DNA from: Sphingobacterium populi
GTDB taxonomy: Bacteria > Bacteroidota > Bacteroidia > Sphingobacteriales > Sphingobacteriaceae
Assembly: GCF_001586775.1 (NCBI RefSeq)
Contig: NZ_LQXS01000002.1
Location: forward strand, 434,001 to 498,000
Reading direction: 5' to 3'
DNA: 64,000 bases
The notes under the pieces: model-generated
What the model saw: the letters and a program-made list of their open reading frames with translations, nothing else
Databases searched by the model: none
Told to the model about the DNA's origin: nothing
Made by a program: the position numbers and the translations under genes
Shown: in pieces, positions 21,125 through 55,494 of the stretch
How the letters are laid out: each line of letters opens with the position of its first letter
Numbering within the stretch: the stretch's first letter is position 1

Positions 21125-21161
21125 AAGACCTCGATGGCCAGTGGCCGCGAGGTCTTTTTTT
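21125..21161 (+). terminator. Terminator between the permease-peptidase and a convergent sensor kinase gene
   Basis: Stem AAGACCTCG (21125-21133) / CGAGGTCTT (21148-21156), with an inner GGCC/GGCC pairing, followed by a T run to 21161. The T run includes part of the stop codon of the convergent sensor kinase gene. Confidence 0.85.
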
Positions 21162-24100
21162 ATGAATTTGAATTGATGACCGACGTACGCGCATCCTTAG
21201 GAATGCGAAGAACAAAGGTATTAAGCGATGAATCGCCATTGTCATAAAATAATTCGCCACTATGCAGATTGGTGAACGAATAAGCTAAAGCCAGTCCTAA
21301 GCCAGAGCCGCTAACCTGATAATGTACGCTCGAGCGATGAAAAGGCTTAAATATTTCGACCACATCAGCAGCTTGTAGCTTTATACCATCATTTTTGATG
21401 ACGCAGCTAAATGTATCGCTGTCTGCATCTTCACTCAATGTGATGATCACTATACTATCGGCATATTTAACAGCGTTGGAAAGTAGATTGCTGATAATCT
21501 TATAGATCACCTCCACATCAATATAGGCTTCCACAGCTTCTTGCAGGCGTAAGCTTACCTGTAGCGATCTGTTTTCGATTATAGGATCAAATTCCGTCAC
21601 ACAGAGTCGTACAAGTGGAGCTATGTTTTGTAACTGAAGATGCAAAGACACTTCATCACTCTCTACTTTACGAAAATCAAGCAACTGCTCTGTAAGTGAA
21701 ATTAACCTATCCGTGTTGATCTGTATGGTATTCAGCCATTTGCTTGTTTTTTCATCATGTGGCAGCGTATGTATTTTTTCCAAAGGAGCTTTGATCAGCG
21801 TGAGTGGCGTCTTGATTTCATGCGTCACACGCATGAAAAAATCCATTTTTGCTCGGTACAGTTCACGTTCCTTGTGCGACTTTATCGTTTGTAATCGGCG
21901 TCGGTTTTTCTCTCGCACATGGCGATCGTAAAAATAGATCGCCAGGCTAATCGCAGCCAGAATAAATATACCGTAAAACACAAATGCAGGAAGGCTTGCC
22001 CATAGCGGCGGTCTGATGATGATTTGTAAGTGTTTCTCTTTCGAAATCGGTAATCCATTTGCATCGCATGCCAATACTTGAAAAGTGTATCTTCCGGGTG
22101 GAATTTTAGTAAAATTCGCTTTATTGTTTTTACGGAGAAATGTCCAAGCCGAATCCAGTCCAAGCAATCTGTATCGGTACGAAGTGGATTGCGCAGAAAC
22201 GTAATTAAGAGCAGCAAAATCAATGCTTATTGTGGATTCATCGTGCTCTAAAGTAATTGCATCGGCGTACGTAATCGATCGGGTAAGATCTCCAGGCGCT
22301 CCGCCAATAGTAAGCTCTCGTTGATGAGATTGTATGCCAGTAATGTATATCGGCGTCACCATGTTGGTGCGGTATAGCGAGCTTAACACTTGCGGATTAA
22401 AGCGAATTAGGCCTTTCGTGGAACCAAAGTACAGGTATCCCTGCGAATCTTTAAAGGCAGAGTTATAGTTGAACTGAAGGTCCAAAATTCCGAGCTCGGT
22501 ATCGAATGTCTCCACAGCTTTTTTATTGTATTCCATTTTTACCAAACCTTGCGATGTACTGATCCATATATTATGCATCACATCTTGTTCAAATCCCAAA
22601 ATCATATTGCTAGGAAGGCCATTTCTAGTGGTTATGCGCTCAAAGTTGTTGTTGTTTTCGTTCCAGAGTGCTATACCACTTTCGGTACCGATCCAAATCT
22701 GCCCGGTATGATCTTGAAATACACGATTTGCACGATTGCTGTTGATCGAATTTTTATCTTTAGGGTCATGCCAATATCGCTCTAGAGTGCCCTTACTGCG
22801 ATTGAGTTTGATCACACCGTTTCGCCAAGTAGTTAACCAGATATTTTCTTTTTTATCTTCAAAAATGGAGGTATAAAACACATGTTTGGGTGCATGCTGT
22901 ACATAACTAAAACGGTCGGCTCCCGCAAAAAATTGGTATAAACCTTTGGATGTTGCCAAGAGCACGCTCGAGTCACGAGTCTTATATATCGAATACACAA
23001 AATCGTCGCCTAACGCACCCTGAGTTGATGCGATGTTGAAAGATTTGAGCACTCGCTTGCTTCGTACATCCACTACGTCCATGCCCTTGTAGAATGTACC
23101 TACTAGCAGACTGTCGCCCACTAATGCTAGACCATGTACGTTACTGTGAGAAAGTCCAGAATTCGGATCCAACGTTTCGAACGTATTGCTTTTAGGATTC
23201 CAGCATGTCAGTCCTTCATCTTCCGTTCCTATCCAGATATTGTAATACTGATCTTCAATAATCTCTCTCGTTGCATGCCCTTGAATAGAATTCCTCGAAT
23301 AGCGAGGAAATATTTTCTCAAAAAAGTTGTGTTGCTGATGGTAATAGTTCAAGCCACCAAAAAAAGTTCCTATCCAAATGCCTTGTTGGTGATCCTTTAT
23401 GATGGTATACAAAGCATTATCACTCAAACTCCATGGATTATCCTTCTCATGTCGTTGAATAGAATACGTGCCATCTTTCTTATTATAAAGCAAGAGCCCC
23501 ATTTCTGTGGCAATCCATAGTTGATTTTGATCAACTTCTATAATATCTCGAACAAAAAGTGGCGTATTAGCTTGGATATTAGGAATCACGTGCGACACTT
23601 GTTGACTAGATCCCGACAATTTGTATACACCGTTACTAGATGTGCCTATCCATATATCATTTTGCTCATCCACGTATAATTTCTCGATGCGGTTATTCCA
23701 GTTTGGGTGAACCTTTAACGTATAGCGATCTTTCGTAGCGAGCGAAATGATGCTTGTTCCAGTGCCGTACCATATCTTATTGTCTCGATCGATACAGAAG
23801 TGCGCGACATGATCTTGCGTATAACTTACTTTGCAAGTCAACTTCCGCTCCTTAATATCGTAATGAAATAACTCATTATTAGCCACAAACCACATGTCTC
23901 CGGTACGATCTTTTTGAATTTGGACGATTTCTTTGGTGAGCGTTTCAGTTAGCAATGAAAAAGTTTGTCGGTACGGATCAAAAATGTACAGGCCTTGATC
24001 GGTGCCCACCCAAATTTCCTTATTATCAGCTACACAAAGGCTATGAATGAAATTACTCCCTAATCCACTTTGGCTGGTGGGATCAGCATAATAAGTTTTG

Positions 24101-24303
24101 AAATTATAACCATCAAATCGATTTAGCCCATGTCGCGTGCCAAACCACAAAAAACTATCCTGATCTTGGGCACTGCACAACACAGCATTGTTAGACAATC
24201 CATTTGCGACCTGAAAATTGTTGAAATAAAGCTGTGCAAAAGCACTACTTGTACTCAAAAATAGCCAACATAGCGCTATGCGCAGCCAAAGCCGAACCGA
24301 CAT
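21160..24303 (-). CDS. Propeller-type sensor histidine kinase (HTCS-like, without receiver or HTH domain)
   Basis: About 1047 residues from the preferred ATG at 24303, which gives a regular signal peptide (LWLRIALCWLFLSTSSAFAQ); ATGs at 24354 or 24423 would only lengthen the front. The periplasmic part consists of two-component regulator propeller repeats (e.g. QDQDSFLWFGTRHGLNRFDG, DNKEIWVGTDQGLYIFD) over about residues 25-680 and a Y_Y_Y domain (YRYRLLGLDSAWTFL). One transmembrane segment lies at about 767-792. The kinase core follows: HisKA with HEIKTPL (phospho-His about 828) and HATPase with SNLLSNAVKYAD, KNDG, FKPFHRSS and SGSGLGLAL (about 998). Classic hybrid regulators continue into a receiver and AraC-type HTH domain; this one stops after the ATPase, so it needs a separate response regulator, which is not in this window. 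It is divergent from two GH43 genes, suggesting it senses their glycan substrate. Confidence 0.9.
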   Translation of the reverse strand: MSVRLWLRIALCWLFLSTSSAFAQLYFNNFQVANGLSNNAVLCSAQDQDSFLWFGTRHGLNRFDGYNFKTYYADPTSQSGLGSNFIHSLCVADNKEIWVGTDQGLYIFDPYRQTFSLLTETLTKEIVQIQKDRTGDMWFVANNELFHYDIKERKLTCKVSYTQDHVAHFCIDRDNKIWYGTGTSIISLATKDRYTLKVHPNWNNRIEKLYVDEQNDIWIGTSSNGVYKLSGSSQQVSHVIPNIQANTPLFVRDIIEVDQNQLWIATEMGLLLYNKKDGTYSIQRHEKDNPWSLSDNALYTIIKDHQQGIWIGTFFGGLNYYHQQHNFFEKIFPRYSRNSIQGHATREIIEDQYYNIWIGTEDEGLTCWNPKSNTFETLDPNSGLSHSNVHGLALVGDSLLVGTFYKGMDVVDVRSKRVLKSFNIASTQGALGDDFVYSIYKTRDSSVLLATSKGLYQFFAGADRFSYVQHAPKHVFYTSIFEDKKENIWLTTWRNGVIKLNRSKGTLERYWHDPKDKNSINSNRANRVFQDHTGQIWIGTESGIALWNENNNNFERITTRNGLPSNMILGFEQDVMHNIWISTSQGLVKMEYNKKAVETFDTELGILDLQFNYNSAFKDSQGYLYFGSTKGLIRFNPQVLSSLYRTNMVTPIYITGIQSHQRELTIGGAPGDLTRSITYADAITLEHDESTISIDFAALNYVSAQSTSYRYRLLGLDSAWTFLRKNNKANFTKIPPGRYTFQVLACDANGLPISKEKHLQIIIRPPLWASLPAFVFYGIFILAAISLAIYFYDRHVREKNRRRLQTIKSHKERELYRAKMDFFMRVTHEIKTPLTLIKAPLEKIHTLPHDEKTSKWLNTIQINTDRLISLTEQLLDFRKVESDEVSLHLQLQNIAPLVRLCVTEFDPIIENRSLQVSLRLQEAVEAYIDVEVIYKIISNLLSNAVKYADSIVIITLSEDADSDTFSCVIKNDGIKLQAADVVEIFKPFHRSSVHYQVSGSGLGLALAYSFTNLHSGELFYDNGDSSLNTFVLRIPKDARTSVINSNS

Positions 24304-24504
24304 CAATGAGACGATTTTAAACGTTTTTGAGATAAATCGACAAATTTTTAACATGATTATTTCACACTTTTGCAATAGGTAGACGCGTGAAAATTTGCTT
24401 ATTTCACTTGCAATTATAAACAAAATAAAATAATAGATGCGTGCTTATTCAGGACGTATCGACTGTTATCGCTAACTATCATATTTATTTAAACTAGGTT
24501 TCTC

Positions 24505-24542: not shown

Positions 24543-25637
24543 ATGAAACTACATCTCTTAATCATAGGCCTCCTTGTATTTCAGGTAGCTTGCAAGCAGT
24601 CTGTTTCAGAGCAGGTGCAGCCGAAAAATCCATTGGATGTACCATTTGGCGATCCTTTCGTGTTATATGACAAGCCTTCTGATCGGTATTACATGTATGG
24701 TACAGGCGGAGTAGATAATGGTTTTGTGGTGTATGTGTCTGATGATATGACCTCCTGGGAAAAAGAAGGCGTAGCCTATACTAACGAGCAAGAACACGCT
24801 TGGGGTGTCAAAGATTTTTGGGCACCAGAAGTTTACGAGTATAAGGGAAAATATTATCTCTTTTACAGTGCCCACTGGAAGGATAATCCTACTAATGAAA
24901 TTGAAAATTTCCGAATCGGAGTGGCAGAATCTGATAGTCCGTTGGGACCGTTTATAGACCAATCTTCGGGCCCTATCTTTGATCCTGGTTATCCAATAAT
25001 TGATGCAAACCTCTATTTCGCCGACAATGGGAAGGTATATATGTATTATTCGAGATGTTGCTATAAGCATGCTGTAGATTCTGAAATTTCGAGATGGGCA
25101 AAAAAGGAAGGAATGTTTGACTCGATAGAAGAAAGTTGGATATATGGTGTAGAATTAGCCGCCGATTTTTCCCGTGTAGTTGGTGAGCCTGTGCTTCTAT
25201 TACGTCCCCCAGTAAATATGGACGATCAACAATCGGAATGGGAAAGCCGCTCGGTGACAAGCGGTGAAGTGAACCGCCGATGGACGGAAGGATCTTATTT
25301 GTTTAAAGAAGGGAATACCTATTATATGATGTACTCTGCGAACTATTTTGGTGGAGAAAATTACGCAGTGGGGTACGCCACATCTACTCATCCTCTTGGA
25401 CCTTTTGACAAATCACCTAATAATCCCATTCTGCAGAAAAACACTACCGAAGGAGGAATCGTAACAGGAACAGGTCATAACAGCTTAGTAACCGATCGCA
25501 GCGGGACTACTTGGTGTGTATATCACGCTCGCACAAACAAAACTGGAGATCAGCGCCTGGCTTTTATCGACCGTTTGGTGATCGATAAACAAGGTAATCT
25601 TCGCGTGGACGGACCAACAGTAAATATCGAGGATTAG
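24543..25637 (+). CDS. GH43 family glycoside hydrolase, lipoprotein
   Basis: 364 residues. The lipoprotein signal is LHLLIIGLLVFQVAC (Cys17). The five-bladed propeller of GH43 shows all three catalytic acids: base Asp37 in FGDPFVLYD, pKa-modulating Asp154 in PIIDANLYF and acid Glu249 in RWTEGSYLF. Other typical bits are FWAPEVYEYKGKYYLFYSA and GTGHNSLVTD. GH43 enzymes act mostly as arabinofuranosidases, xylosidases or arabinanases by inversion; subfamily and linkage cannot be fixed here. It is the first of two GH43 genes, 29 bases before the next. Confidence 0.92.
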   Translation: MKLHLLIIGLLVFQVACKQSVSEQVQPKNPLDVPFGDPFVLYDKPSDRYYMYGTGGVDNGFVVYVSDDMTSWEKEGVAYTNEQEHAWGVKDFWAPEVYEYKGKYYLFYSAHWKDNPTNEIENFRIGVAESDSPLGPFIDQSSGPIFDPGYPIIDANLYFADNGKVYMYYSRCCYKHAVDSEISRWAKKEGMFDSIEESWIYGVELAADFSRVVGEPVLLLRPPVNMDDQQSEWESRSVTSGEVNRRWTEGSYLFKEGNTYYMMYSANYFGGENYAVGYATSTHPLGPFDKSPNNPILQKNTTEGGIVTGTGHNSLVTDRSGTTWCVYHARTNKTGDQRLAFIDRLVIDKQGNLRVDGPTVNIED

Positions 25638-25666: not shown

Positions 25667-26692
25667 ATGAATTTCAGTATGCTCTTGTACAGATTTCTTG
25701 TGCGCCTTAGTACGGTCATGTCTTCTGTAGTACTAATATGTTGCAGTTATAGTAACGAATCGCCGATGAAGAACAAGCAACACCTGGCAGATTCTCTTTC
25801 CATTTTTGCAGCAGATCCCACGATTTTTGAAGACAATGGCGTCTATTATCTGTATGGCACCGATGGAGATCAGCCCAATCAAGGATTTCGCGTTTATCGA
25901 TCATCAAATCTTACACATTGGGAGGGGCCAGTAGGAGCTAATAATGGGTTTGCGTTAATTAAAGATGATGTCTTTGGCGACAAAGGATTTTGGGCACCAC
26001 ATGTATGGAAGGAAGGAAATATTTATTATATGGCATATACAGCTAATGAAAATATTGCCATTGCACAAAGTTCATCGCCACTTGGTCCATTTAAGCAACA
26101 GCAGCAGGCACCTCTTATTACAGAGGGTAAGCAGATCGATCCATTCGTTTATCGTGATGACGATGGTAAAAAATACCTTTACCATGTTAAGTTGCAAAAT
26201 GGCAATCGCATTTTCGTCGCCGAGCTGAATAACGATTATGCATCTATCAAATCAGGAACATTAGTGGAAATATTGGATGCCTCACTACCTTGGGAAAACA
26301 CCGATAATGTTTCTTGGCCAGTCGTTGAAGGTCCAACGGTGATCAAACGGGATAATAAGTATTACCTCTTTTATTCTGCAAATGATTTTCGAAATCCGTA
26401 TTACGCAGTCGGGTTAGCAGTAGCCGACCGACCTAGCGGGCCTTGGGTTAAATATGGTAATGAGCCACTTTTAAGTGTGAATCACACGTCGTGGCCTGGT
26501 ACAGGGCACGGGGATGTTTTTCAGAAAAATAATCAATGGTTTTACATATGCCATACCCACAACTCGGCTACTGCAGTGGGTCCACGTCGTACCGCTATCG
26601 TTCCATTTGATTGGAATTTAGAAGACGAAAATGGGATCAAAAAGCCTGTGTTTAGGGGAGAAAGTATTCAGTTTCTACAGATTTATCCATGA
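25667..26692 (+). CDS. GH43 family glycoside hydrolase, lipoprotein
   Basis: 341 residues. The signal MSSVVLICC gives a lipobox with Cys25 or Cys26 as the acylated residue. The catalytic acids are Asp50 in AADPTIFED, Asp158 in KQIDPFVYRD and Glu221 in VVEGPTVIKR. Middle motifs GFWAPHVWKEGNIYYMAYTA and GTGHGDVFQKNNQWF are typical. It is clearly a different subgroup from the preceding GH43, so the pair may cleave two linkages of the same arabinose- or xylose-containing glycan. After its stop there are 287 bases without a gene before the oxidoreductase operon. Confidence 0.92.
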   Translation: MNFSMLLYRFLVRLSTVMSSVVLICCSYSNESPMKNKQHLADSLSIFAADPTIFEDNGVYYLYGTDGDQPNQGFRVYRSSNLTHWEGPVGANNGFALIKDDVFGDKGFWAPHVWKEGNIYYMAYTANENIAIAQSSSPLGPFKQQQQAPLITEGKQIDPFVYRDDDGKKYLYHVKLQNGNRIFVAELNNDYASIKSGTLVEILDASLPWENTDNVSWPVVEGPTVIKRDNKYYLFYSANDFRNPYYAVGLAVADRPSGPWVKYGNEPLLSVNHTSWPGTGHGDVFQKNNQWFYICHTHNSATAVGPRRTAIVPFDWNLEDENGIKKPVFRGESIQFLQIYP

Positions 26693-26979: not shown

Positions 26980-28260
26980 ATGGACAGAAAAAAATTTATT
27001 ACCAATACAGTACTATTAGCGGCCTCCATTACAAGTTGGGGAGCATTTGCCCAATCGTATACTGCAAAAGCGGTGCGCGTTGGCGTAATCGGCATCCACG
27101 GTATGGGCTGGTCCAATTTGAAAGCTATCCTACGAGATAGTCGGGTGCAGTGTACCGCACTCTGCGACGTAGATAAAGAGGTGCTCGCACAGCGCGTTGC
27201 TGAGTTAGCCACTCAAAATATAAACGTAACAACGTATACAGATTATAAAGAGTTGCTAAAAGATGCGAATGTTGATGCCGTAATTATAGGTACACCAGAT
27301 CACTGGCACTGTTTGCAGATGGTAGATGCTGTACACGCAGGCAAGCACGTGTACGTAGAAAAACCGATTGGAAACTCTATCGTCGAATGCGAAATCATGG
27401 TGGCAGCAGCACAATCACGTAACGCTATCGTGCAAGTTGGGCAGTGGCAGCGTAGCCAGCAGCACTTTAAAGACGCAGTCGACTTTGTGCATTCGGGTAA
27501 ACTAGGGAAGATTCGGCAGGTAAAAGCTTGGTCTTACGTTGGCTGGAAAACACCTATTACGAAAAAGCCTGATGCAATAGCACCATCCTATGTTGATTAT
27601 GAAAAGTGGCTCGGCCCAGCTGAAAAGAGAGCGTTCAATCCCAATCGTTTCCATTTCGAATTTCGATGGTTTTGGGATTATGCCGGCGGTCTGATGACCG
27701 ATTGGGGCGTACACATGTTGGACTATGCGTTGCTAGGTATGAAAGTATCAGATCCAGTATCAGTGATTGCGGCAGGAGGTAAGTTTGCCGCGCCAGATGG
27801 CGCTTCAGAAACACCCGATACGTTGACGGCAGTGTACGAGTTTGAAGATTTTAATATCCAGTGGGAGCACACAGTGGGTATTAGCGGCGGACCTTACAGT
27901 CGTGATCATGGCGTCGCTTTCGTCGGTGATAATGGCACGCTAGTACTCAATCGTGCTGGGTGGGAAGTCATTCCCGAAGGAGATCGTATGCCAGCTGTAG
28001 TCTTCCAAAAAGCGGTCGATGATGGCTTAAATAAGCATATGGTGAACTTTGTAGACGCCATCGTACAACAGAAACCGCAAATATTGAATGCTCCAATAGA
28101 AGCTGGTGCACATATCGCCATTTTTGCACAACTGGGCAATATTGCGTACCGATCGGGTCAAAAATTGTATTGGGATAAACATAAACGCAAGTTTACAGAC
28201 AAACAGGCAAACAAATTACTTGCTACTCGTTATCATAATGGGTACAGCCTGCCAAAATAG
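26980..28260 (+). CDS. Exported Gfo/Idh/MocA family oxidoreductase
   Basis: 426 residues. The N-terminus RKKFITNTVLLAASITSWGAFAQ is a signal sequence, so the enzyme is exported. The Rossmann fold begins VGVIGIHGMGWSN (nucleotide-binding Gly at 38-43) and the family signature EKPIGN is at residues 127-132 (catalytic-type Lys 128). The C-terminal domain has the motif FEFRWFWDYAGGLMTDWGVHMLDYAL, shared with other exported sugar oxidoreductases. Family members oxidise or reduce sugars with NAD(P), often tightly bound. It starts the operon Gfo - DUF1080 x2 - Gfo - GH2, with gaps of 56, 25 and 68 bases. A near paralogue lies at 44327-45612. The reaction is most likely oxidation of a hydroxyl to a keto group on a glycoside, by analogy with glucoside 3-dehydrogenases. 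Confidence 0.9.
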   Translation: MDRKKFITNTVLLAASITSWGAFAQSYTAKAVRVGVIGIHGMGWSNLKAILRDSRVQCTALCDVDKEVLAQRVAELATQNINVTTYTDYKELLKDANVDAVIIGTPDHWHCLQMVDAVHAGKHVYVEKPIGNSIVECEIMVAAAQSRNAIVQVGQWQRSQQHFKDAVDFVHSGKLGKIRQVKAWSYVGWKTPITKKPDAIAPSYVDYEKWLGPAEKRAFNPNRFHFEFRWFWDYAGGLMTDWGVHMLDYALLGMKVSDPVSVIAAGGKFAAPDGASETPDTLTAVYEFEDFNIQWEHTVGISGGPYSRDHGVAFVGDNGTLVLNRAGWEVIPEGDRMPAVVFQKAVDDGLNKHMVNFVDAIVQQKPQILNAPIEAGAHIAIFAQLGNIAYRSGQKLYWDKHKRKFTDKQANKLLATRYHNGYSLPK

Positions 28261-28316
28261 AAAAGGTTCTTTTAACACTAATTCAATAAACTAGAATTAT
28301 CAAACAAAAGCTAAAG

Positions 28317-29726
28317 ATGAGTACAAAATTGATGATAGAAAGAAAAGTAAAATCTTGGTGTCAAGTAGCAACCATTGCCGGTGCTGCTTTATTAATTGGC
28401 TTGCCGACACAAAGTTTTGCACAAAAACGTGGTTGGACGGATTTATTTGACGGACAAACGCTACAAGGCTGGAAAGCAGTCGGTGGCAAAGCGCCTTACC
28501 ATGTCGCAAATGGGGAAATTGTCGGAACCATGACCAAAGGTACGCCTAATTCTTTTTTAATCACAGAGCAGGAGTACGGTGACTTTATTCTTGAGTTGGA
28601 TATTAAGCTAGAAGGAGTGGAAACCAATTCTGGTGTACAAACGCGCAGTCACATCGATATGCAGGCAGATGGCGGTAGAGGTCGTGTATATGGCCGCCAG
28701 GTAGAAGTAGATCCTAGCGATCGGGCTTGGACAGGTGGTATTTATGACGAAGCGCGGCGCGGTTGGTTATACCCATTAGATCTGAACGAAAAAGCAAAGT
28801 CGGCTTATAAGAGAAATGAATATAATCACTTACGCATCGAAGCTATTGGTGATGAGCTACGCACTTGGGTAAACGGTGTACCCGTTGCCTATGTAGTCGA
28901 TACGTTGGATCAGAAAGGGTTTATCGGATTACAAGTTCATAGCATCACCGACGATCAGGATGGCAAAAAGGTGTATTTCAAAAATATACGCATACAGACC
29001 GAGAACTTGAAACCTTCTTCTTTTGCCAAAGAACAACACATCGTAAACCTTAAGCCGAACCACCTCAGTGCAGCCGAAAAGAAAGCTGGCTGGCATCTAT
29101 TGTTTGATGGAAACTCCGCCGATCAGTGGCGCAGTGTGCGCGATCAAAACTTCCCTGCACAAGGTTGGAAAGTAGGTGATGGCATTATCAAAGTGCAAAA
29201 ATCGGATGGCGGTGAATCTACCAATGGTGGCGACATCATTACGCGCGACAAGTATGCCGTTTTTGATCTTTCTTTCGAATTCAAATTGACACCAGGTGCT
29301 AACAGTGGTGTAAAATATTTTGTTACGCTCAAGGAGCAAACTGTAGGCTCGGCGATCGGTCTGGAATTCCAAGTGTTGGACGACGCACTGCATCCAGATG
29401 CAAAGATGGGACGCGATGGCAACCGTACTTTGGCTTCATTGTATGATCTCATTACTTCCAAACGCGATGACCGTGCTCGTAGACCAGTAGGGCAGTGGAA
29501 TCGTGGGCGCGTTGTGGTCGACGCAGACAATAACGTAACGCATTACCTAAACGGTGTTAAGATGGTGTCTTACAAACGCGGATCGCAAGAATTCAAGGAC
29601 CTAGTAGCCAAAAGTAAATACAAAGATTGGGAAAACTTTGGTGAAGCTAAAGAGGGGCATATTCTACTCCAGGATCATGGTGATGAAGTGTCATTCCGCA
29701 ATATTAAAATTAATAAACGCAAATAA
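28317..29726 (+). CDS. Exported protein with two DUF1080 (3-keto-disaccharide hydrolase) domains
   Basis: 469 residues. A signal peptide (VATIAGAALLIGLPTQSFAQ) is followed by two copies of the DUF1080/PF06439 fold, a concanavalin-like jelly roll. Domain A spans about residues 40-235: GWTDLFDGQTLQGWKAVGG, then NSGVQTRSH, ending VYFKNIRI. Domain B spans about 255-469: GWHLLFDGNSADQWRSV, then NSGVKYFVTL, ending VSFRNIKINKRK. The paired LFDG...W, NSG and terminal RNI patterns mark both as family members. Known relatives hydrolyse or eliminate 3-keto-glycosides made by Gfo-type dehydrogenases. The gene lies directly between two exported Gfo oxidoreductase genes, which supports that coupling. I cannot tell whether both domains are active. 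Confidence 0.88.
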   Translation: MSTKLMIERKVKSWCQVATIAGAALLIGLPTQSFAQKRGWTDLFDGQTLQGWKAVGGKAPYHVANGEIVGTMTKGTPNSFLITEQEYGDFILELDIKLEGVETNSGVQTRSHIDMQADGGRGRVYGRQVEVDPSDRAWTGGIYDEARRGWLYPLDLNEKAKSAYKRNEYNHLRIEAIGDELRTWVNGVPVAYVVDTLDQKGFIGLQVHSITDDQDGKKVYFKNIRIQTENLKPSSFAKEQHIVNLKPNHLSAAEKKAGWHLLFDGNSADQWRSVRDQNFPAQGWKVGDGIIKVQKSDGGESTNGGDIITRDKYAVFDLSFEFKLTPGANSGVKYFVTLKEQTVGSAIGLEFQVLDDALHPDAKMGRDGNRTLASLYDLITSKRDDRARRPVGQWNRGRVVVDADNNVTHYLNGVKMVSYKRGSQEFKDLVAKSKYKDWENFGEAKEGHILLQDHGDEVSFRNIKINKRK

Positions 29727-29751
29727 ACCCGCACCCTAAAATAAACGAACT

Positions 29752-31167
29752 ATGAATCATTATTTATCGCGCAGGAGCTTTATTTCTCGTACTGCTATGG
29801 CTGGCGGCGCTATGTTGCTATCGAATAGCGTTCTAGGTAACGTACAATTAGCCTCGGCTAATGAGCGTGTCAATCTTGCTTGTGTTGGTATTGGTAATCG
29901 TGCCGCTGAAATTATCAAAGAGCTTTATAAAACTGGCTTATGTAACGTGGTAGCGCTTTGCGATGTCGACATGGGAGCCAAACAAACGCAGGAAATTCTT
30001 CAAATGTTTCCAGATGCTCGTAAGTTTCAGGATTTTAGGCGGATGTTTGACGAAGCCGGAAAAGATTTTGATGCAGTATCGATCGGTACGCCAGATTTTG
30101 CACACTTCGCAGTCACCATGCTAGCCATCGATCAAGGTAAGCATGTGTATGTTGAAAAACCTATGGCACAGACATTCAACGAAGTTGAACTGATGATGCA
30201 AAAGGCAAAAAAACACCATAATGTCGTTACGCAGATGGGCAACCAAGGGCATTCAGAAGCCAACTATTTCCAATTTAAAGCATGGAAAGAGGCCGGGATC
30301 ATCAAAGATGTAACGCGTATCGATGCACATATGAATATGCCTCGGCGTTGGCATGGTTGGGATCCAAATATCAAGCGATTTCCAACAGCCGAAGCGATTC
30401 CTAGTACTTTAGATTGGGAAATATGGCAAATGCAAACCTTAGGACACGATTATAACAAAGATTTTGTGAACGGACAATGGCGTTGTTGGTTTGATTTTGG
30501 TATGGGCGCTTTGGGTGATTGGGGAGCACATATTTTAGATACGGCGCATGAATTTTTGGCGTTAGGTTTGCCAACGCGTGTGGAGGCAGTAATGTTGGAT
30601 GGACATAATTCCTTCTTCTTTCCGATGTCCTCTACACTAAAATTTAGCTTTCCAAAACGTAAGAATATGCCGAAGCTAGATATCAATTGGTACGATGGTA
30701 TCGATAATCTTCCACCTATTCCCGAAGGCTATGGCGTATCTGGGCTAGATCCCAATATCCCACCGCCAAGTACAGGAGCGATAGAACCTGCCAAACTGAA
30801 TCCCGGTAAAATCATCTACGGTAAAGATTTGACTTTCAAAGGTGGATCGCATGGCAGCACGCTCTCAATCATTCCAGAAGACAAAGCGAAGGAAATGGAA
30901 CGCCGCTTGCCAGAAGTGCAGGCATCTCCATCCAATCACTTTGCCAACTTCTTGAAAGCCTGTAAAGGAGAAGAGAAAACCCGTTCTCCTTTTGATATAG
31001 CAGGTCCGCTTAGTCAAGTATTCTGTCTTGGAGTAATCGCGCAAAGGCTTAATACCAAAATGGACTTCGATCCGGTACGGAAGGAAATCACGAACGATCA
31101 ATTTGCTAATGCTCTGCTAGTTGGTCCGCCGCCTGCAAAAGGTTGGGAACAATTTTATAAAGTATAG
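29752..31167 (+). CDS. Exported Gfo/Idh/MocA family oxidoreductase (Tat-type signal)
   Basis: 471 residues. The N-terminus SRRSFISRTAMAGGAMLLSNS carries a twin-arginine motif, so the enzyme is probably exported folded with its cofactor. The Rossmann motif is ACVGIGNRA, the signature EKPMAQ is at residues 135-140, and the body shows ARFPDW-type features PRRWHGWDP and GDWGAHILDTAHEF. It belongs to a different subgroup from the first Gfo of this operon, with a C-terminus of the kind found in large Bacteroidota paralogue families. Two different oxidoreductases in one operon suggest successive oxidation and reduction steps, or two substrates. Confidence 0.9.
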   Translation: MNHYLSRRSFISRTAMAGGAMLLSNSVLGNVQLASANERVNLACVGIGNRAAEIIKELYKTGLCNVVALCDVDMGAKQTQEILQMFPDARKFQDFRRMFDEAGKDFDAVSIGTPDFAHFAVTMLAIDQGKHVYVEKPMAQTFNEVELMMQKAKKHHNVVTQMGNQGHSEANYFQFKAWKEAGIIKDVTRIDAHMNMPRRWHGWDPNIKRFPTAEAIPSTLDWEIWQMQTLGHDYNKDFVNGQWRCWFDFGMGALGDWGAHILDTAHEFLALGLPTRVEAVMLDGHNSFFFPMSSTLKFSFPKRKNMPKLDINWYDGIDNLPPIPEGYGVSGLDPNIPPPSTGAIEPAKLNPGKIIYGKDLTFKGGSHGSTLSIIPEDKAKEMERRLPEVQASPSNHFANFLKACKGEEKTRSPFDIAGPLSQVFCLGVIAQRLNTKMDFDPVRKEITNDQFANALLVGPPPAKGWEQFYKV

Positions 31168-31235
31168 CTTCGCATTACAAACAGCTGTCAATCACGGATT
31201 ATACTATCAAGTAATACATCAGAAAAACATCTATA

Positions 31236-33071
31236 ATGAACAAACTACGCATTTTAGCTTGTGTGGTAGCGGTCGGCTTTGCCTCGGCCAAAGCGCAAGA
31301 ATGGAAGCCAGCAGGCGATAAGATCATGACCACTTGGGGCGAAAACCTCAATTATAAACAACCGCACCCCGAGTATCCGCGGCCACAGTTAGAAAGAACC
31401 GACAATTGGAAAAATCTAAATGGTCTGTGGAAATATGCTATTGTTGAGCAAAACGTATCGGCTGCACCGACGCAATGGGATGGAGATATCTTGGTGCCCT
31501 TCGCCGTCGAATCATCCCTTTCTGGCGTAGGTCGTTCACTTAGCAAAGACCAAGCGCTATGGTACAAAAATGAAATAAGCGTGCCCAAAAATTGGCAAAA
31601 AGGAAAAACCTTACTGCACTTTGGTGCAGTAGATTGGCGCTGCGATGTCTACATCAATGGTCAGCATATTGGCCAGCACGAAGGCGGATTTGACCCATTC
31701 TCTATGGACATCAGTGCAGCATTGAAAAAGGGAGAAAAGCAAGAAGTCGTGATTCGCGTATGGGATCCTACAAGCGATGGGCCACAACCTCGCGGCAAGC
31801 AGATTAATAATCCGCATGGCATATGGTATACACCAGTGTCGGGTATCTGGCAAACGGTATGGATCGAATCTGTGCCGAAAACGTACATCGTAGCAACCAA
31901 GCAAACGCCGAATGTAGACAAATCAACTTTATCGGTATCGGCGACTATCGAAGCGGCACAATCAGGCGACCAGTTGATTGTCGAAGCATTTGACGGTAGC
32001 AATAAAATCGCAGAAGCTACGGCGGCGGCCAACAGTACAATAGATCTGCCCCTACAAAATATCGAACTGTGGAGTCCTGATAAACCCAAACTTTACGATC
32101 TACAGGTGAAAGTACTGCGAGGTGGCAAAGTCGTAGATCAGGCAAAAAGTTACTTCGCTATGCGCAAAATCAGTATGAAAGCCGACGATCAAGGCATACA
32201 ACGTATGTACCTAAATGATAAGTTCGTTTTCCATTACGGTCCACTCGATCAAGGTTGGTGGCCTGACGGTTTGCATACCGCACCATCGGATGAAGCGCTA
32301 AAATTCGATATTATTAAAACGAAGGAAATGGGCTTTAATATGATTCGTAAGCATATTAAAGTAGAACCAGCACGATGGTATCGCCATTGTGATAGCTTAG
32401 GGATTTTAGTTTGGCAAGATATGCCTAGTGGAGATTTAGGAGGTAATACGTGGGATATGCAGCCCGGAAAAATATCCAATGGAAAGCACGATAAAGACCG
32501 TACGCCAGAATCGGAGGCAATCCATCGTAAAGAATGGAAATCCATCATGGATCAGTTACACAACTTTCCAAGTATCGTAATCTGGGTACCATTTAATGAA
32601 GCATGGGGACAGTTCAAAACGAAGGAAATGACCGATTGGACGATGACGTATGATCCATCTCGTTTGGTTAATAGTGCGAGTGGTGGCAATTTTGCCTATG
32701 TTGGTCATATATTAGATATACACAACTATCCTGATGCCGCCATGCCCGATCCACGGCTGTTTGGAGATCAGTTTATCCTTGCTTTAGGAGAATATGGTGG
32801 ATTTGGTTTGCCGATCGACGGACACACTTGGCAAGATAAAGATAACTGGGGCTATGTGTCGTTTAAAAATAAAGAAGAACTGAAAGAACGATATCAAAAA
32901 GCAATAAACGACCTCTCTAAGTTGATCCCTAAGGGATTGTCGGCAGCGGTATATACGCAGACAACAGATGTGGAGGTAGAAACAAATGGTCTGATGACGT
33001 ACGACAGAAAGGTAATCAAAATTCCAGAGGATACTCTCGAAAAAATGCACAGCGTTTTATATGTACATTGA
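31236..33071 (+). CDS. Glycoside hydrolase family 2 protein
   Basis: 611 residues with signal peptide (RILACVVAVGFASAKAQ). The three GH2 domains are recognisable: sugar-binding jelly roll (about 50-215, WKNLNGLWKYAI, HFGAVDWRCDVYINGQHIGQHEGGF split over 128-151), immunoglobulin-like sandwich (about 215-310) and TIM barrel (about 315-600). The acid/base is Glu455 in PFNEAWG and the nucleophile candidate is Glu519 in LGEYGGFG. Members include beta-galactosidases, glucuronidases and mannosidases; specificity is undetermined. It ends the operon and is followed by a strong terminator. Confidence 0.92.
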   Translation: MNKLRILACVVAVGFASAKAQEWKPAGDKIMTTWGENLNYKQPHPEYPRPQLERTDNWKNLNGLWKYAIVEQNVSAAPTQWDGDILVPFAVESSLSGVGRSLSKDQALWYKNEISVPKNWQKGKTLLHFGAVDWRCDVYINGQHIGQHEGGFDPFSMDISAALKKGEKQEVVIRVWDPTSDGPQPRGKQINNPHGIWYTPVSGIWQTVWIESVPKTYIVATKQTPNVDKSTLSVSATIEAAQSGDQLIVEAFDGSNKIAEATAAANSTIDLPLQNIELWSPDKPKLYDLQVKVLRGGKVVDQAKSYFAMRKISMKADDQGIQRMYLNDKFVFHYGPLDQGWWPDGLHTAPSDEALKFDIIKTKEMGFNMIRKHIKVEPARWYRHCDSLGILVWQDMPSGDLGGNTWDMQPGKISNGKHDKDRTPESEAIHRKEWKSIMDQLHNFPSIVIWVPFNEAWGQFKTKEMTDWTMTYDPSRLVNSASGGNFAYVGHILDIHNYPDAAMPDPRLFGDQFILALGEYGGFGLPIDGHTWQDKDNWGYVSFKNKEELKERYQKAINDLSKLIPKGLSAAVYTQTTDVEVETNGLMTYDRKVIKIPEDTLEKMHSVLYVH

Positions 33072-33088: not shown

Positions 33089-33126
33089 AAAAGTCCCTTA
33101 AATGATAATTTAAGGGACTTTTTTTT
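33089..33126 (+). terminator. Intrinsic terminator after the GH2 gene
   Basis: Perfect 15-bp stem AAAAGTCCCTTAAAT (33089-33103) / ATTTAAGGGACTTTT (33108-33122) with a 4-base loop, followed by a T run. Ends the Gfo-DUF1080-Gfo-GH2 operon. Confidence 0.92.
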
Positions 33127-33814: not shown

Positions 33815-34990
33815 TCAGGTAAAAAGTTCGAATAACGTCTGAACTCCCATGTACGCCATAATCATAGCGATAGCGATTCCAGCGTAAGTGAGCCAGATGG
33901 GTTGACGATACTGACCCACAATCGTAGTTTGTTGTGCGGCTATAAGCATTACCGCAAGAGCCAGTGGAAGAATAAACCCATTAAGTGCGCCTGCTACGAC
34001 CAAGGTCTGTACGGGGTTACCAATGCATGCGTATAAGATACAAGAGATCAGAATAAAGCAGACCGTTACCACTCGTAGATTGGATTGGATAACAGTATGG
34101 AAGCTTTTGATAAAGGTAATAGAGGTATAAGCAGAGCCAATAACAGAGGTAATAGCTGCAGCCCACATCACCAGTCCAAATATTTTGTATCCCAATGCGC
34201 CCCCGGCCCATCGGAATACCGAAGCAGGTGGATTGTTCGGGTCAATTAGATGACCTGCCGAAACGACACCCAGCGCCGCAATAAATAGCAGAATACGCAT
34301 TACCGAAGCAATTCCTATAGCACTTATTGCGCCGCGATCTACCGTACGTAGATTATCAACGCCATGTATGCCCTGATCCAATAGCCGATGTGCGCCTGCA
34401 AAGGTGATGTAGCCACCTACAGTACCACCGATTATCGTGACAAGTGCCGTAAAACTAAAGTGCTGAGGTGAAACAGTGCGCACTGCTGTTTCGAGTAAGG
34501 GTGGGTTGCTCTTAAATGCGATATAAAGCATGAGAAAAATCATCATAACACCGAGGATTTTGACAAAGATGTCCATCGCTCGGCTTGCTTCCTTATATAA
34601 AAAAATCCCAATCGCTATGATAGCGCTGCATACGGCTCCCAGGGTAACATCCATGCCAAATAGGACTTGTAAACCTAGGCCGGCACCTGCAAGATTCCCA
34701 ATGTTAAAAGCCAAACCTCCAAAAGCCACCATAGCAGCCAATCCATACCCGAGACCAGGTAATAATTTATTTGCTATCTCTTGAGCAGGTGATCCGCTTA
34801 CAGCTACTACACGCCAAATATTCATCTGAGCAACAATATCGACCAAGATAGAAGCAAGGATAATGAATCCGAAACTCGCGCCCAATTGTGAGGTGAATAA
34901 AGCGGTTTGTGTTAGAAAACCTGGTCCGATCGCAGAAATCGCCATCAGAAATGCTGCGCTCAACAGCGCTCCCCAATTCGATTTTTTCAT
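33815..34990 (-). CDS. Nramp-fold transporter in the 5-oxoprolinase operon
   Basis: 391 residues with about eleven transmembrane segments of the Nramp/APC fold. The first helix reads AISAIGPGFLTQTALFTSQLGASFGFI. Canonical Nramp proteins have DPGN in this place, which provides metal ligands; here it is IGPGF, so the metal-binding Asp and Asn are missing. In helix 6 the usual metal-binding Met-Pro-His is likewise replaced by GGTVGGYITFAGAHRLLD. The gene overlaps pxpA by four bases (ATGA), as for B. subtilis YcsG. A 5-oxoproline or related organic substrate is therefore more likely than divalent metal, but this is inference. Confidence 0.88.
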   Translation of the reverse strand: MKKSNWGALLSAAFLMAISAIGPGFLTQTALFTSQLGASFGFIILASILVDIVAQMNIWRVVAVSGSPAQEIANKLLPGLGYGLAAMVAFGGLAFNIGNLAGAGLGLQVLFGMDVTLGAVCSAIIAIGIFLYKEASRAMDIFVKILGVMMIFLMLYIAFKSNPPLLETAVRTVSPQHFSFTALVTIIGGTVGGYITFAGAHRLLDQGIHGVDNLRTVDRGAISAIGIASVMRILLFIAALGVVSAGHLIDPNNPPASVFRWAGGALGYKIFGLVMWAAAITSVIGSAYTSITFIKSFHTVIQSNLRVVTVCFILISCILYACIGNPVQTLVVAGALNGFILPLALAVMLIAAQQTTIVGQYRQPIWLTYAGIAIAMIMAYMGVQTLFELFT

Positions 34991-35751
34991 GATATAGGTG
35001 CGTTAATTTCTATGTTTTCTTTTCGGAGGTGGGTGTTTAGGTCTTCAGCAAATGAAAGCGCATGCTCTCCGTCTCCGTGAATACAAATGGTTTCTATGTC
35101 GCGAGGTATCTGTGTGCCATTAATACTGCGGACGGCTTTATGCTTTATCATCAGGATGGATTGCTCCAAGGCTTCTTCTCTATCGCTAATTATGGCCAAC
35201 GGGTTTTGACGCGAGACCAATGTGCCATCCGATTGATAACGTCGGTCGACAAAACCTTCCTGTACTACTTTAATACCTTGCTCTTTCGCAATATCCACCG
35301 TAACACTACCTGCTAAAGCATATAACTTAAGCGATGGATCAAAATCTACGATCGCGCGTACAATAGCCTCCGAAAGAGAGCGATCTTCGGCTACCATATT
35401 ATAGAGCGCACCATGGAGTTTTACATGTTTTAGAGTACCTTTTGCAACATGAACAAATGCCGCTAATGCGCCTATTTGATAAAGCACTAATTGATAAGCT
35501 TCTTTAGGAACAATAGGTAGCGGTTTTCGTCCAAAATTAGCTTTGTCATCTAGTCCTGGATGTGCGCCAATAGCAACGCCTTTGCGTAGCGCTGCAGCCA
35601 CGGTTATTTCCATGCGCATCGCGTCGCCAGCATGGAACCCACACGCAATGTTGGCCGACGAAACCAAGTTTAGTAAAGCTTCATCTTGTGTATTGGTCTG
35701 GCATCCCGGCGTTTCGCCCAAATCGCAGTTTATATCAATGCTGTACTTCAT
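34987..35751 (-). CDS. pxpA: 5-oxoprolinase subunit PxpA (LamB/YcsF family)
   Basis: 254 residues. PxpA acts with PxpB and PxpC to hydrolyse 5-oxoproline (pyroglutamate) to glutamate with ATP. Diagnostic sequence: IDINCDLGETPG, SSANIACGFHAGDA, VAIGAHPGLDDKANFGR, HVKLHGALYN and ICIHGDGEHAL near the end. Stop and start codons overlap the transporter gene by four bases and pxpC by four bases (35748-35751), so translation is coupled. Confidence 0.95.
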   Translation of the reverse strand: MKYSIDINCDLGETPGCQTNTQDEALLNLVSSANIACGFHAGDAMRMEITVAAALRKGVAIGAHPGLDDKANFGRKPLPIVPKEAYQLVLYQIGALAAFVHVAKGTLKHVKLHGALYNMVAEDRSLSEAIVRAIVDFDPSLKLYALAGSVTVDIAKEQGIKVVQEGFVDRRYQSDGTLVSRQNPLAIISDREEALEQSILMIKHKAVRSINGTQIPRDIETICIHGDGEHALSFAEDLNTHLRKENIEINAPIS

Positions 35752-36746
35752 TTGGTGTAGTATCGGAGGTCGATTGCTCTTCTTATTTTTTGAAAATAGT
35801 ATTGTTCATCAAGATATAAAACTTCAGCCTCTTTGGTCGAAATCTCCTGAAAGTAAATTTGATCACCCGGTTTTAATTGTCCGCAAAGCGGTAGATCAAT
35901 AGCGGCTACTTGCGCTATACGAGGATATCCGCCCGTGGTTTGGCAATCTGCCATTAGAAGTACCGGCCTTCCATTTCCGGGTATCTGTATCGTGCCTGGT
36001 AATACCGCAGTCGAAAGCAATTCTGCTTTATTGATCCGTTGGATATCATGTCCTTCCAAGATGTAACCCATGCGGTTACTATTGCGATCCACTTCAAAGG
36101 CCGAAGAAAGAAATTTATGCCAGCTTTCTGTACTAAACCAGTCGGCTTCCGGTCCACGTACTACACGAATGACTGGTATATCTGGCGTCGTCAAATTTCT
36201 ACCTGATCCGATATACCAAAGCGGAAAGCTGCGATTGCTTTGTTGCAACTGCGTGAAGAAAGACTGATGTTCCGTGGTCCACGCTGTGGCACACAGTATA
36301 TCGCCATTCTGAAGCAGCCGTCCATTTATACCGCCGATTTTGGCTTGCAAATAAGTGCTCCTGCTTCCCATAGCAATTGGAACATCCCATCCGCCGGTGG
36401 TGGCAAGGTAAGTTCTACATCCCATTCCGTCAGGGATTAATTTTAATCGTGTGCCTTTCACCAGTGCCAGTGGGCGATTAGCTGGTAAAGGGATTTTTCC
36501 GTTAGCCAACACAGCGCCTTGTCCAGCATACGCTAACAACATATCTGAAAGGATTTCTATTTCAGCCTGTGCATAGGTTAGTTCTATTACAGCGGCTTGG
36601 GCTGCATTGCGGAGAGCCTCGTTGGCGATACGAACTGATAAGGTATCCATCGCACCTGCCTTAGGCACACCAAACGACAGATAGTCCAGACGCCCTAGGT
36701 CCTGAATAGAACTGAATGGTCCTGCTTTAAGAAGTTTTATTGCCAT
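35748..36746 (-). CDS. pxpC: 5-oxoprolinase subunit PxpC (biotin-dependent carboxyltransferase-like)
   Basis: About 332 residues from the ATG at 36746, the start that matches the family (IKLLKAGPFSSIQDLGRLDY). An earlier in-frame codon at 36872 lies inside pxpB. Motifs: GVPKAGAMDTLSVRIAN, ELTYAQAEIEIL, VRGPEADWF, SNRMGYILEG, GNGRPVLLMADCQTTGGYPRIAQV. Related to the urea amidolyase C domain; together with PxpB it probably forms the ATP-using catalytic unit. Overlaps pxpB by 20 bases. Confidence 0.94.
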   Translation of the reverse strand: MAIKLLKAGPFSSIQDLGRLDYLSFGVPKAGAMDTLSVRIANEALRNAAQAAVIELTYAQAEIEILSDMLLAYAGQGAVLANGKIPLPANRPLALVKGTRLKLIPDGMGCRTYLATTGGWDVPIAMGSRSTYLQAKIGGINGRLLQNGDILCATAWTTEHQSFFTQLQQSNRSFPLWYIGSGRNLTTPDIPVIRVVRGPEADWFSTESWHKFLSSAFEVDRNSNRMGYILEGHDIQRINKAELLSTAVLPGTIQIPGNGRPVLLMADCQTTGGYPRIAQVAAIDLPLCGQLKPGDQIYFQEISTKEAEVLYLDEQYYFQKIRRAIDLRYYTK

Positions 36747-37485
36747 AACAATCTTGTCGATATGCGTCAAAATGGGAGTGATCCATAGCTTCGAAACGAA
36801 TTTCTTGACCGCTTCGCAGCAATATAGGTGATGCCTGCTCAGGATCAAAAAGTGGCAGGGGCGTACGCCCAATGAGTTGCCAACCGCCAGGACTCTCTAA
36901 AGGGTAGATGCCAGTTTGTGCGCCTGCGATTCCTACTGATCCTGCGGGTACTTTTTGTTGTGGTGTCGTTTTTCGTGGCGTCGCTAAAGATGGGTCGAGT
37001 CCACCGAGATATGGAAATCCTGGCAAAAAACCCATCATATAAATAAGATATGTAGTAGATGTGTGGCGTTTGATAATTTCTGATGCGCTAAGCCCTGTAT
37101 GTGCTGCGACATGCTCTAAATCCGGACCGTACTCACCACCGTAACATACTGGTATGCTGAGAACGTCGGTCATGAATTCCGTTTGTGAAGGTTGCTGCTG
37201 CATAAGTATACTGATATGGTCGAATATCCATTCAGCTGTGCTCTGCGCACCTATGTCGTACGCAGATTTTAGAACAAAAGGATCGTACTGTATGCACAGC
37301 GTCGTATACGCTGCTACGGTAGTCAGCAAGCCGGGAAAGGGGGCATGCTTTAGCAAATTTTCAACAAATCGTATTTTTGGAGGAATTGCGGGATCTATAC
37401 GGTCTCCGAAAACGATAGTAACCGCCTTTTCTCCCAATGCATAATATCCAAATAAATCATTCGCGTTAAGAGGTAGGGCATCCAT
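36727..37485 (-). CDS. pxpB: 5-oxoprolinase subunit PxpB (KipI/allophanate hydrolase subunit 1-like)
   Basis: 252 residues. Typical sequence: YYALGEKAVTIVFGD, IPVCYGGEYGPDLEHVA, HTSTTYLIYMMGFLPGFPYLGGL, PRKTTPQQKVPAGSVGIAGAQTGIYPLESPGGW split over the C-terminal half. Works with PxpC and PxpA in 5-oxoproline hydrolysis. Preceded eight bases upstream by a small membrane-protein gene and then panB, all on the same strand. Confidence 0.95.
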   Translation of the reverse strand: MDALPLNANDLFGYYALGEKAVTIVFGDRIDPAIPPKIRFVENLLKHAPFPGLLTTVAAYTTLCIQYDPFVLKSAYDIGAQSTAEWIFDHISILMQQQPSQTEFMTDVLSIPVCYGGEYGPDLEHVAAHTGLSASEIIKRHTSTTYLIYMMGFLPGFPYLGGLDPSLATPRKTTPQQKVPAGSVGIAGAQTGIYPLESPGGWQLIGRTPLPLFDPEQASPILLRSGQEIRFEAMDHSHFDAYRQDCYGNKTS

Positions 37486-43543: not shown

Positions 43544-44281
43544 CTACAATGGGCGAATCCAAATATTACGGAATCGTACCAAATCTCCGTGATCTTGTAA
43601 AATGATGGGGCCCGGTCCATGCGCTTTCATCACAGGCATTCCGATATATTCTGTTGTGCCTTCGATTTGTGTGTTATTTTGTACTAAAACACCGTTGTGT
43701 AGTACCGTGACGGTAGCTTTTGCGATTAGCATGCCATCTTTATTGAACTGGGGCGCTTTGAAGATGATGTCGTAAGTGTGCCATTTTGATTCATTGGCTC
43801 TCACTTCGACCAGTGGTGGACGCTGCTTGTAGATACTTCCTGCCTGCCCATTTACGTAAGTGGGATTATTATCGTTATCCAGCACTTGTATTTCATAAAG
43901 TCCTTGTAAGAAAATACCGCTATTCCCGCGCCCTTGACCATTACCTTTCACTACGGCGGGACTTTGCCACTCTACATGCAGTTGAAAGTTTTCGAATTCT
44001 TCTTTAGTCTGAATATCTCCGCTACCGGGTTTTACTTCGAGCTGTCCGTCTACGACCGTCCAGTCGGCTTTTGCTTGATTGTTTTTTTGACTAACCCATT
44101 GCTGCAACCCGTTGCCGTCAAAAAGGCTGATTGCATCGCTGGGTACGCCGTTTGCTGCCAGTGTTACTACGGGAGGTTTGGGCGTGTAAAATTCTGTATC
44201 CTCGGGTTTGAATTGTGTTTGAGCCATAAGTGATGATGTAGCTGCTATCATTAAGATCGTACAGATATAGCGTTTTTTCAT
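43544..44281 (-). CDS. Exported DUF1080 (3-keto-disaccharide hydrolase) protein
   Basis: 245 residues with a signal peptide (RYICTILMIAATSSLMAQ). One DUF1080 jelly roll: ISLFDGNGLQQWVSQKNN, then NSGIFLQGLYEIQVLD, VEVRANESKWHTYDIIFKAP, ending DHGDLVRFRNIWIRPL. The LFDG...W, NSG and RNI patterns are intact. It is the single-domain counterpart of the tandem protein at 28317. It follows the frameshifted Gfo gene by 45 bases on the same strand, giving an oxidoreductase-DUF1080 pair as in the other locus. Confidence 0.9.
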   Translation of the reverse strand: MKKRYICTILMIAATSSLMAQTQFKPEDTEFYTPKPPVVTLAANGVPSDAISLFDGNGLQQWVSQKNNQAKADWTVVDGQLEVKPGSGDIQTKEEFENFQLHVEWQSPAVVKGNGQGRGNSGIFLQGLYEIQVLDNDNNPTYVNGQAGSIYKQRPPLVEVRANESKWHTYDIIFKAPQFNKDGMLIAKATVTVLHNGVLVQNNTQIEGTTEYIGMPVMKAHGPGPIILQDHGDLVRFRNIWIRPL

Positions 44282-44326
44282 GTATTATAGTAGTTTAAAT
44301 TAGATGAATCATTTGATTTTTTTGTT

Positions 44327-45647: not shown

Positions 45648-45867
45648 GTTCACTAATTGTTAGTCCATCTAAGATAGTCAATACTTTACTAATTTTCTAT
45701 ATCACATGCATTTCAAATGTAGTGGTGGAATGGTAATATCACGTCTTGTAAAGTAAAGATTTTGTTGGAATTGCCTGAAAGCAGATTTCAAACTTGCTCG
45801 TAGGAGCATTTAGTTTTAGAAATAACAAATATTCCCTATCTTGGATCATCTACATCAACCTATTGAA

Positions 45868-46848: not shown

Positions 46849-46877
46849 CTATTATCTATTCTAACAATAAATCTAAA

Positions 46878-48194: not shown

Positions 48195-48197
48195 TAC

Positions 48198-51154: not shown

Positions 51155-51164
51155 GATTCAAATT

Positions 51165-54392: not shown

Positions 54393-54636
54393 AGTGTGAG
54401 GATGTAGATTTATAGAGTTAGTAGTTTATTAATCAATTAGTGTTTCGAGCTACGATTGAATTCGCAGTTCTGTTTTCATCGGTTGTCATAAACTTAGGGA
54501 TTGTCATTTAACAATACAACTATCTACGTAAAAAAACTAATCAACTTTTCCTTTGTGGATGAAAAAAATAAATCACATTCTTGTGTGAAATAGGTAGTTG
54601 TTCTAGTGGGGTGTATAGTATGTATGCGATGCTTAT

Positions 54637-54677
54637 ACATTCTATAAGGCATTAATTATATGTGTTTTATAGAATGT
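54637..54677. repeat. Perfect 11-bp inverted repeat with 19-base spacer
   Basis: Arms ACATTCTATAA and TTATAGAATGT, about 245 bases upstream of the SusC start. Possible operator or cruciform site. Confidence 0.5.
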
Positions 54678-54967
54678 TTTGTCAGGTGTTCCTGCACAAA
54701 CGTTATTGCGTCAATTGTCTAGCGATTCTATTCAAAATAGGACAAAAGTTAAATTGATGCTTCAGGTGTTATTTTTTTAATGCATTTGATAAAATATATG
54801 CACAGAAAGATGTCTGAAATATCGAGTGGTGATATATATGATTTAAATGCTAACTCATCAGTTTTACAAAAAGAAAAATGTCGATCGTTGCTAAAAGATT
54901 GCGAGATATAGCAGCCGATGTCAGCATATGGATCGATTAGCGAGGATGTTTAAACATAGTGATCGAA

Positions 54968-54988
54968 TGACCTTTGAATAAAAGGTCA
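54968..54988. repeat. Perfect 8-bp inverted repeat, operator-like
   Basis: TGACCTTT-GAATA-AAAGGTCA. There is no T-rich tail on either side, so an operator is more likely than a terminator. Confidence 0.45.
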
Positions 54989-55441: not shown

Positions 55442-55475
55442 CAAAGCCCGTGAACTGGTACATCCACGGGCTTTG
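55442..55475 (-). terminator. Hairpin after the second SusD gene
   Basis: Stem CAAAGCCCGTG (55442-55452) / CACGGGCTTTG (55465-55475), a perfect 11-bp pairing with a 12-base loop, 19 bases past the stop at 55495. Read on the minus strand there is no long T run, so it may be a weak terminator or 3'-end protector. Confidence 0.6.
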
Positions 55476-55494
55476 AAGCAATGTTTTATGGACA

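Follow-up and report, generated by a model that had tools for sequence, protein, structure and literature searches.

A double-DUF1080 protein and its adjacent Gfo/Idh/MocA oxidoreductase: a candidate extracytoplasmic 3-keto-glycoside module in Sphingobacterium

An operon of Sphingobacterium populi, in which two Gfo/Idh/MocA oxidoreductases surround a protein with two DUF1080 domains, raises the question of whether its products oxidize a glycoside outside the cytoplasm before cleaving it, and whether the glycosidase and sensor genes around them belong to the same route. The operon was analysed within a window of 64,000 nucleotides (contig NZ_LQXS01000002.1, positions 434,001 to 498,000; window coordinates are used unless another locus is named) from a 3.56 Mb Sphingobacterium genome. 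We favour, with a probability of about 0.6, the reading that the operon encodes a 3-keto-glycoside module working outside the cytoplasm, to which a small cassette of furanosidases and a sensor is attached.

The gene order given in a preliminary description of this DNA was confirmed by the open reading frames, by Pfam searches and by folding of the terminator. Two Gfo enzymes, GfoA and GfoB, flank the double DUF1080 protein (DUF1080x2), a GH2 gene follows, and the operon closes at a strong terminator (−21 kcal/mol, z = −5.9 by folding calculation). The gaps between the four reading frames are 56, 25 and 68 bp. GfoA and GfoB matched PF01408 (75 and 64 bits respectively) and PF19051, and the GH2 gene matched PF02837, PF00703 and PF02836. 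The GH43 pair and the sensor kinase were also found upstream of GfoA as described, the kinase being divergently oriented. GfoA lies 287 bp beyond the second GH43 gene (GH43b) and may therefore be transcribed separately from the GH43 pair; a promoter search returned a single TAACTTTG, at 26779, with no −33 partner.

Export was predicted from the N-termini, which were read by eye. The leader of GfoB has the twin-arginine motif SRRSFIS and scored above the cut-off of TIGR01409 in a profile search, and TatC is encoded in the genome. Leaders of proteins of the GfoA clade have RK in place of RR. Sec-type leaders are predicted for DUF1080x2 and GH2, and lipobox-like leaders for the GH43s.

Features of the operon and its upstream neighbours (window coordinates)
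Feature	Coordinates	Strand	Description
Two-component sensor kinase	21160..24423	-	Reg_prop propeller, Y_Y_Y, HisKA, HATPase
GH43 lipoprotein a (GH43a)	24543..25637	+	PF04616; predicted lipoprotein
GH43 lipoprotein b (GH43b)	25667..26692	+	PF04616; predicted lipoprotein
GfoA	26980..28260	+	426 aa Gfo/Idh/MocA oxidoreductase; own clade; RK-type Tat-like leader
DUF1080x2 (double PF06439)	28317..29726	+	469 aa; N domain ~36-235, C domain ~244-469
GfoB	29752..31167	+	471 aa Gfo/Idh/MocA enzyme; twin-arginine leader; clusters with BT2158 (8tdf)
GH2 hydrolase	31236..33071	+	611 aa; NE acid/base and E nucleophile motifs present
Intrinsic terminator, operon end	33089..33122	+	15-bp stem, 4-nt loop, T-run

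The association between DUF1080x2 and a Gfo enzyme extends well beyond this genome. DUF1080x2 occurred in 68 of 395 sampled Bacteroidota genomes. A Gfo gene was located within three genes of it at 53 of 58 Bacteroidota loci, as compared with 2 of 346 distant genes, and at 75 of 79 loci in a set centred on the Sphingobacteriaceae, as compared with 0 of 385. For a Gfo at the +1 position p was ~3e-41, a value to be read with the non-independence of related genomes in mind. The Sphingobacterium partner is GfoB (43 loci fall in its cluster); in Pedobacter, DUF1080x2 is flanked on both sides by different Gfos. GfoA adjoined DUF1080x2 at 12 of 80 related loci, and in several other genomes besides. 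We conclude that the conserved core is DUF1080x2 together with an adjacent Gfo. A regular hydratase companion of the double DUF1080 protein was rejected: PF01261 TIM-barrel candidates lay near only 2/58 of the Bacteroidota and 8/79 of the Sphingobacteriaceae loci, in counts made with a small HMM of our own that may miss some. With the same HMM a TIM barrel was found at 4 of 12 BT2157-like single-domain loci (few, related genomes), and the contrast between the two kinds of locus (p 0.007) is only suggestive.

DUF1080x2 belongs to PF06439, named '3-keto-disaccharide hydrolase' in Pfam. The family matched two stretches of the protein (283 bits in all), each half scoring 142–146 bits against a gathering cut-off of 26.8. 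The closest solved structure was 4jqt, which aligned over the full length (E 1e-136). This putative glycosyl hydrolase likewise has two domains, both DUF1080 domains being aligned, and its entry name carries no assigned function; a literature search yielded no function for the double architecture. The C domain gave a clear match to BT2157-like structures, and it retains the BT2157 motifs ExQ, HPDAK, R, SLYD and QDHG. Structure 3osd is probably BT2157, since it and 8tda scored nearly the same. The signature of the N domain differs from that of the C domain and consists of QxE, GGIYDEARRGWLYP and QVH. Among 79 orthologues, 82 of 200 positions in the N domain and 104 of 226 in the C domain were at least 97.5% conserved. 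Neither domain therefore appears degenerate, and this conservation suggests that both are catalytic.

The two types of domain were also found as separate genes. At one locus (L351, 6916-9646, minus strand) unfused C-type and N-type DUF1080 genes follow a Gfo gene and overlap each other by 4 bp. Lone N-type domains mostly had no Gfo neighbour, L351 and L354 being the exceptions. Taken together, the unlike signatures, the conservation of both domains and the unfused pair suggest that the two domains carry out complementary steps, for example elimination and hydration. The arrangement would then amount to a minimal two-protein module.

The oxidoreductases were compared with characterized relatives. 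In the tree, GfoB grouped with BT2158 (8tdf) and with another Gfo of its own genome (support 99/98, long branches), the latter adjoining GMC and Gluconate_2-dh3 genes; GfoA belonged to a separate Sphingobacterium clade. NCBIfam equivalogs exist for BT2158, a glycoside 3-dehydrogenase, and for BT2159. The BT_2158_fam model (NF058561) has an equivalog cut-off of 750 bits, and GfoB and GfoA scored below it at 292 and 156 bits. Both carry an EKP motif (127–129 in GfoA, 135–137 in GfoB) and a D...H pair (D241/H245 and D256/H260 respectively); the EKP lysine and the D...H pair are residues expected of the Gfo family. By homology, GfoA, DUF1080x2 and GfoB bring candidate 3-dehydrogenases and a candidate cleaving enzyme together in one operon.

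Published relatives are the model for the chemistry that we propose, for its regiochemistry at C3, for the division of labour between the domains, and for substrate and regulation. A Gfo with bound NAD(P) would oxidize the glycoside at C3 in the periplasm, and the resulting ketone would acidify the C2-H. Cleavage of the glycosidic linkage would then fall to DUF1080x2, most likely through beta-elimination and subsequent addition of water, and its two unlike domains may divide these half-reactions between them. GfoA or GfoB would finally reduce the 3-keto sugar, which allows a cycle without net oxidation or reduction. Furanosyl decorations (arabinofuranosyl or galactofuranosyl) would be trimmed by the GH43s and GH2, and control of the gene set would lie with the kinase and an AraC-type regulator encoded apart from it. 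A division of labour between the domains of DUF1080x2 is not forced, because PF01261 has ten matches in the genome outside the operon, and several of these proteins carry export-like leaders.

The oxidise-then-cleave reading of the preliminary description draws support from the DUF1080x2–Gfo pairing, from the clustering of GfoB with BT2158 and from the BT2157 residues of the C domain. Its further claim, that the route is complete, did not hold: the operon has neither a hydratase gene of the PF01261 type nor a transporter gene, and both Gfos score below the equivalog cut-off. We also found no support for the idea that the substrate is a glycoside which normal hydrolases cannot open.

The same proteins could be read differently. 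DUF1080x2 might act directly on unoxidized glycans in the manner of THTE_1561, which is cited as a DUF1080 endo-xanthanase/lichenase, the Gfos acting separately on the freed sugars; DUF1080 genes have also been proposed to cut the xanthan backbone (PMC5673643). An independent glycosidase would, however, leave the near-constant adjacency of DUF1080x2 and Gfo unexplained. Moreover, the structures that the C domain clearly matches are those of BT2157 type, and in Price et al. (2022; PMC9007349) BT2157 appears as a 3-ketotrehalose hydrolase. We regard direct cleavage as quite improbable. The Gfo fold also includes GH109, chains of which (6t2b and 2ixa) were among the structure matches of GfoA. In GH109-like enzymes oxidation, elimination, addition and reduction take place in a single active site. 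GfoA, GfoB or both might on these grounds, and on those of the EKP lysine and D...H residues, be self-sufficient NAD-dependent glycosidases of that kind, with DUF1080x2 as an accessory binding or hydratase protein. Yet the GH109-type matches of GfoA were weak (34 and 32 bits, against 101 bits for 8tdf), and such chains were absent from the match list of GfoB. The position of GfoB beside BT2158 and the conservation of both DUF1080x2 domains, suggestive of catalysis, also speak against this alternative, which we consider very improbable.

The cassette around the candidate 3-keto-glycoside module was then considered through its GH2, whose nearest structure was the uncharacterized 7sf2 (708 bits). 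The nearest characterized structure was a beta-D-galactofuranosidase (9j6n/9j6m; 453 bits for 9j6n), with further matches to 7xyr (320 bits) and to other GH2 chains at ~90 bits or less. 9J6M is assigned to GH2_18, within group III, whose members act on arabinofuranosides and galactofuranosides (2025 subfamily study, PMC12243196). The catalytic motifs of the present GH2 are intact, including the FNEAW acid/base motif; 9J6M is only a distant relative (~450 bits, against 708 for 7sf2), and the enzyme is a candidate member of the GH2_18/19 furanosidase group. By sequence comparison, GH2 is nearest to furanosidases, not to beta-galactosidases. The sensor kinase ends after its HATPase domain, without a receiver or DNA-binding domain. 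It falls outside the definition of a hybrid two-component system (HTCS), in which kinase, receiver and AraC domains are joined in one protein. Orthologues of the kinase elsewhere adjoin an AraC-type response regulator, and the best match to that regulator in the S. populi genome (69% identical) lies ~208 kb from the locus.

Conservation of the wider gene set is uneven. The closest loci found were those of S. corticibacter and S. chungjuense, with DUF1080x2 93–94% identical; for S. corticibacter, the identities of DUF1080x2, GfoB and GH2 span 92–96%. Outside this genome, the complete set that includes both GH43s, GH2 and the kinase was seen only in two species very close to it. In another species, one locus (L309; DUF1080x2 identity 76%) has GH43a, GfoA, DUF1080x2, GfoB, an FAD oxidoreductase, Gluconate_2-dh3, GMC and GH2 in one direction, facing a kinase (53% identical) and its AraC-type regulator. 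Loci L304, L305, L312 and L313/L314 hold varied combinations of the kinase, its regulator, GH2, GH43s, GH92 and sulfatases. In several other Sphingobacterium species, a GH43a orthologue is often found ahead of GfoA. The recurrence of the set in L309, and of parts of it in other loci, supports the grouping first described as a recurring association. As a fixed operon the whole set was rejected, the core being DUF1080x2–GfoB and the rest accessory. The genes flanking DUF1080x2–GfoB also change from one species to another and include FGGY-kinase sugar genes, GH32 and sulfatase, which speaks against the favoured reading and for a module of broad use, not one with a single defined substrate.

It is conceivable, though doubtful, that the furanosidase cassette of GH43s, GH2 and kinase and a general DUF1080x2–Gfo module are mere neighbours with no common substrate. 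Most Sphingobacterium genomes have DUF1080x2–GfoB with no GH43 or GH2 nearby. The GH2 gene itself occurred in 56 of 61 genomes but was usually located elsewhere. Against chance proximity stand the recurrence of the set in L309, at the level of divergence given above, and the repeated linkage of GH43a to GfoA.

The proposed 3-keto-glycoside route has several precedents. The BT2156-BT2160 pathway of B. thetaiotaomicron reportedly proceeds by oxidation, elimination, hydration and reduction. The present operon shares with it a relative of the Gfo glycoside 3-dehydrogenase (8tdf) and a DUF1080 relative (8tda). It differs in that DUF1080 is doubled, no TIM-barrel partner is present in the operon, the Gfos are distant (below the equivalog cut-off), and GH43, GH2 and kinase genes are attached. 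In Caulobacter, DUF1080 genes are important for the use of lactose or raffinose, and such genes have been linked to cleavage of 3'-ketolactose; for the LacABC–DUF1080 system of Caulobacter and some Bacteroidota, periplasmic oxidation at C3 followed by cleavage by DUF1080 was proposed (Price et al., 2022; PMC9007349). Unlike that system, the operon lacks GMC and Gluconate_2-dh3 genes and so does not encode the LacABC subunits. GMC/Gluconate_2-dh3 pairs do occur in L309, where they resemble LacA/LacC, and at a second locus of the S. populi genome (L022). The latter cluster (L022 4518-10573, G000:C1) encodes an exported PF01261 TIM-barrel protein, a nucleoside/sugar symporter, a GMC oxidoreductase whose frame is broken near 7530, a BT2158-like Gfo (479 bits) and Gluconate_2-dh3; it is LacA/LacC-like and without DUF1080. 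The Agrobacterium GlycDH-AtOGE-AtHYD-Gfo operon (Bitter et al., 2023; PMC10628242) and the levoglucosan pathway (PMC7676230) likewise run from oxidation through elimination and hydration to reduction, with a Gfo enzyme. The Agrobacterium eliminase and putative hydratase, however, belong to the sugar phosphate isomerase/epimerase family, not to DUF1080.

Since oxidation, elimination, hydration and reduction in series have already been published, the pathway is not new in kind. What is new is the doubled DUF1080 protein with a dedicated Gfo, attached to a furanosidase/sensor cassette; the chemistry is known. A bolder version, in which a fused eliminase–hydratase and one NAD-bound Gfo serving both redox steps act on furanosides or furanose-decorated glycans, strikes us as unlikely, and we know of no report of 3-keto chemistry on such substrates. 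Widespread in Bacteroidota, the compact arrangement pairs a putative cleaving protein of two domains with a single oxidoreductase. Should those domains split elimination and hydration, two genes could do the work of four enzymes. Many loci would then be easier to annotate, and small biocatalysts could become available for glycosides on which ordinary hydrolases fail.

Further DUF1080 and Gfo genes were noted in passing. A second Gfo–DUF1080 pair lies at 43544-45612 (minus strand) in the window and comprises a GfoA paralogue followed by a single-domain DUF1080 gene. A 65% identical homologue of the BT2157-like protein is on contig C5, without Gfo neighbours. At L023 (5353-10023, minus strand) a protein of 1130 aa with HEAT repeats and two DUF1080 domains adjoins a Gfo and SusC/SusD-like genes, and large DUF1080 proteins of this kind were found in most Sphingobacterium genomes searched. 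An FGE-sulfatase-domain protein, another exported Gfo and an ApbE-like protein stand in a row at 45841-49187 (plus strand) of the window, beside two SusC/SusD-like pairs (49271-60227, minus strand). The frame of the GfoA paralogue is broken near 45150-45210, and intact homologues occur in relatives. Frames are also shifted near 61000-61100 in a phosphotransferase-like gene (60520-61634) and near 63200 in a tyrosine recombinase gene (62745-63620). These breaks and that in the L022 GMC gene suggest indel errors of the draft assembly, not gene decay. Just downstream of the operon, at 33815-37485 (minus strand), an NRAMP-type transporter and a PxpA/B/C-like 5-oxoprolinase set form an ordinary gene group.
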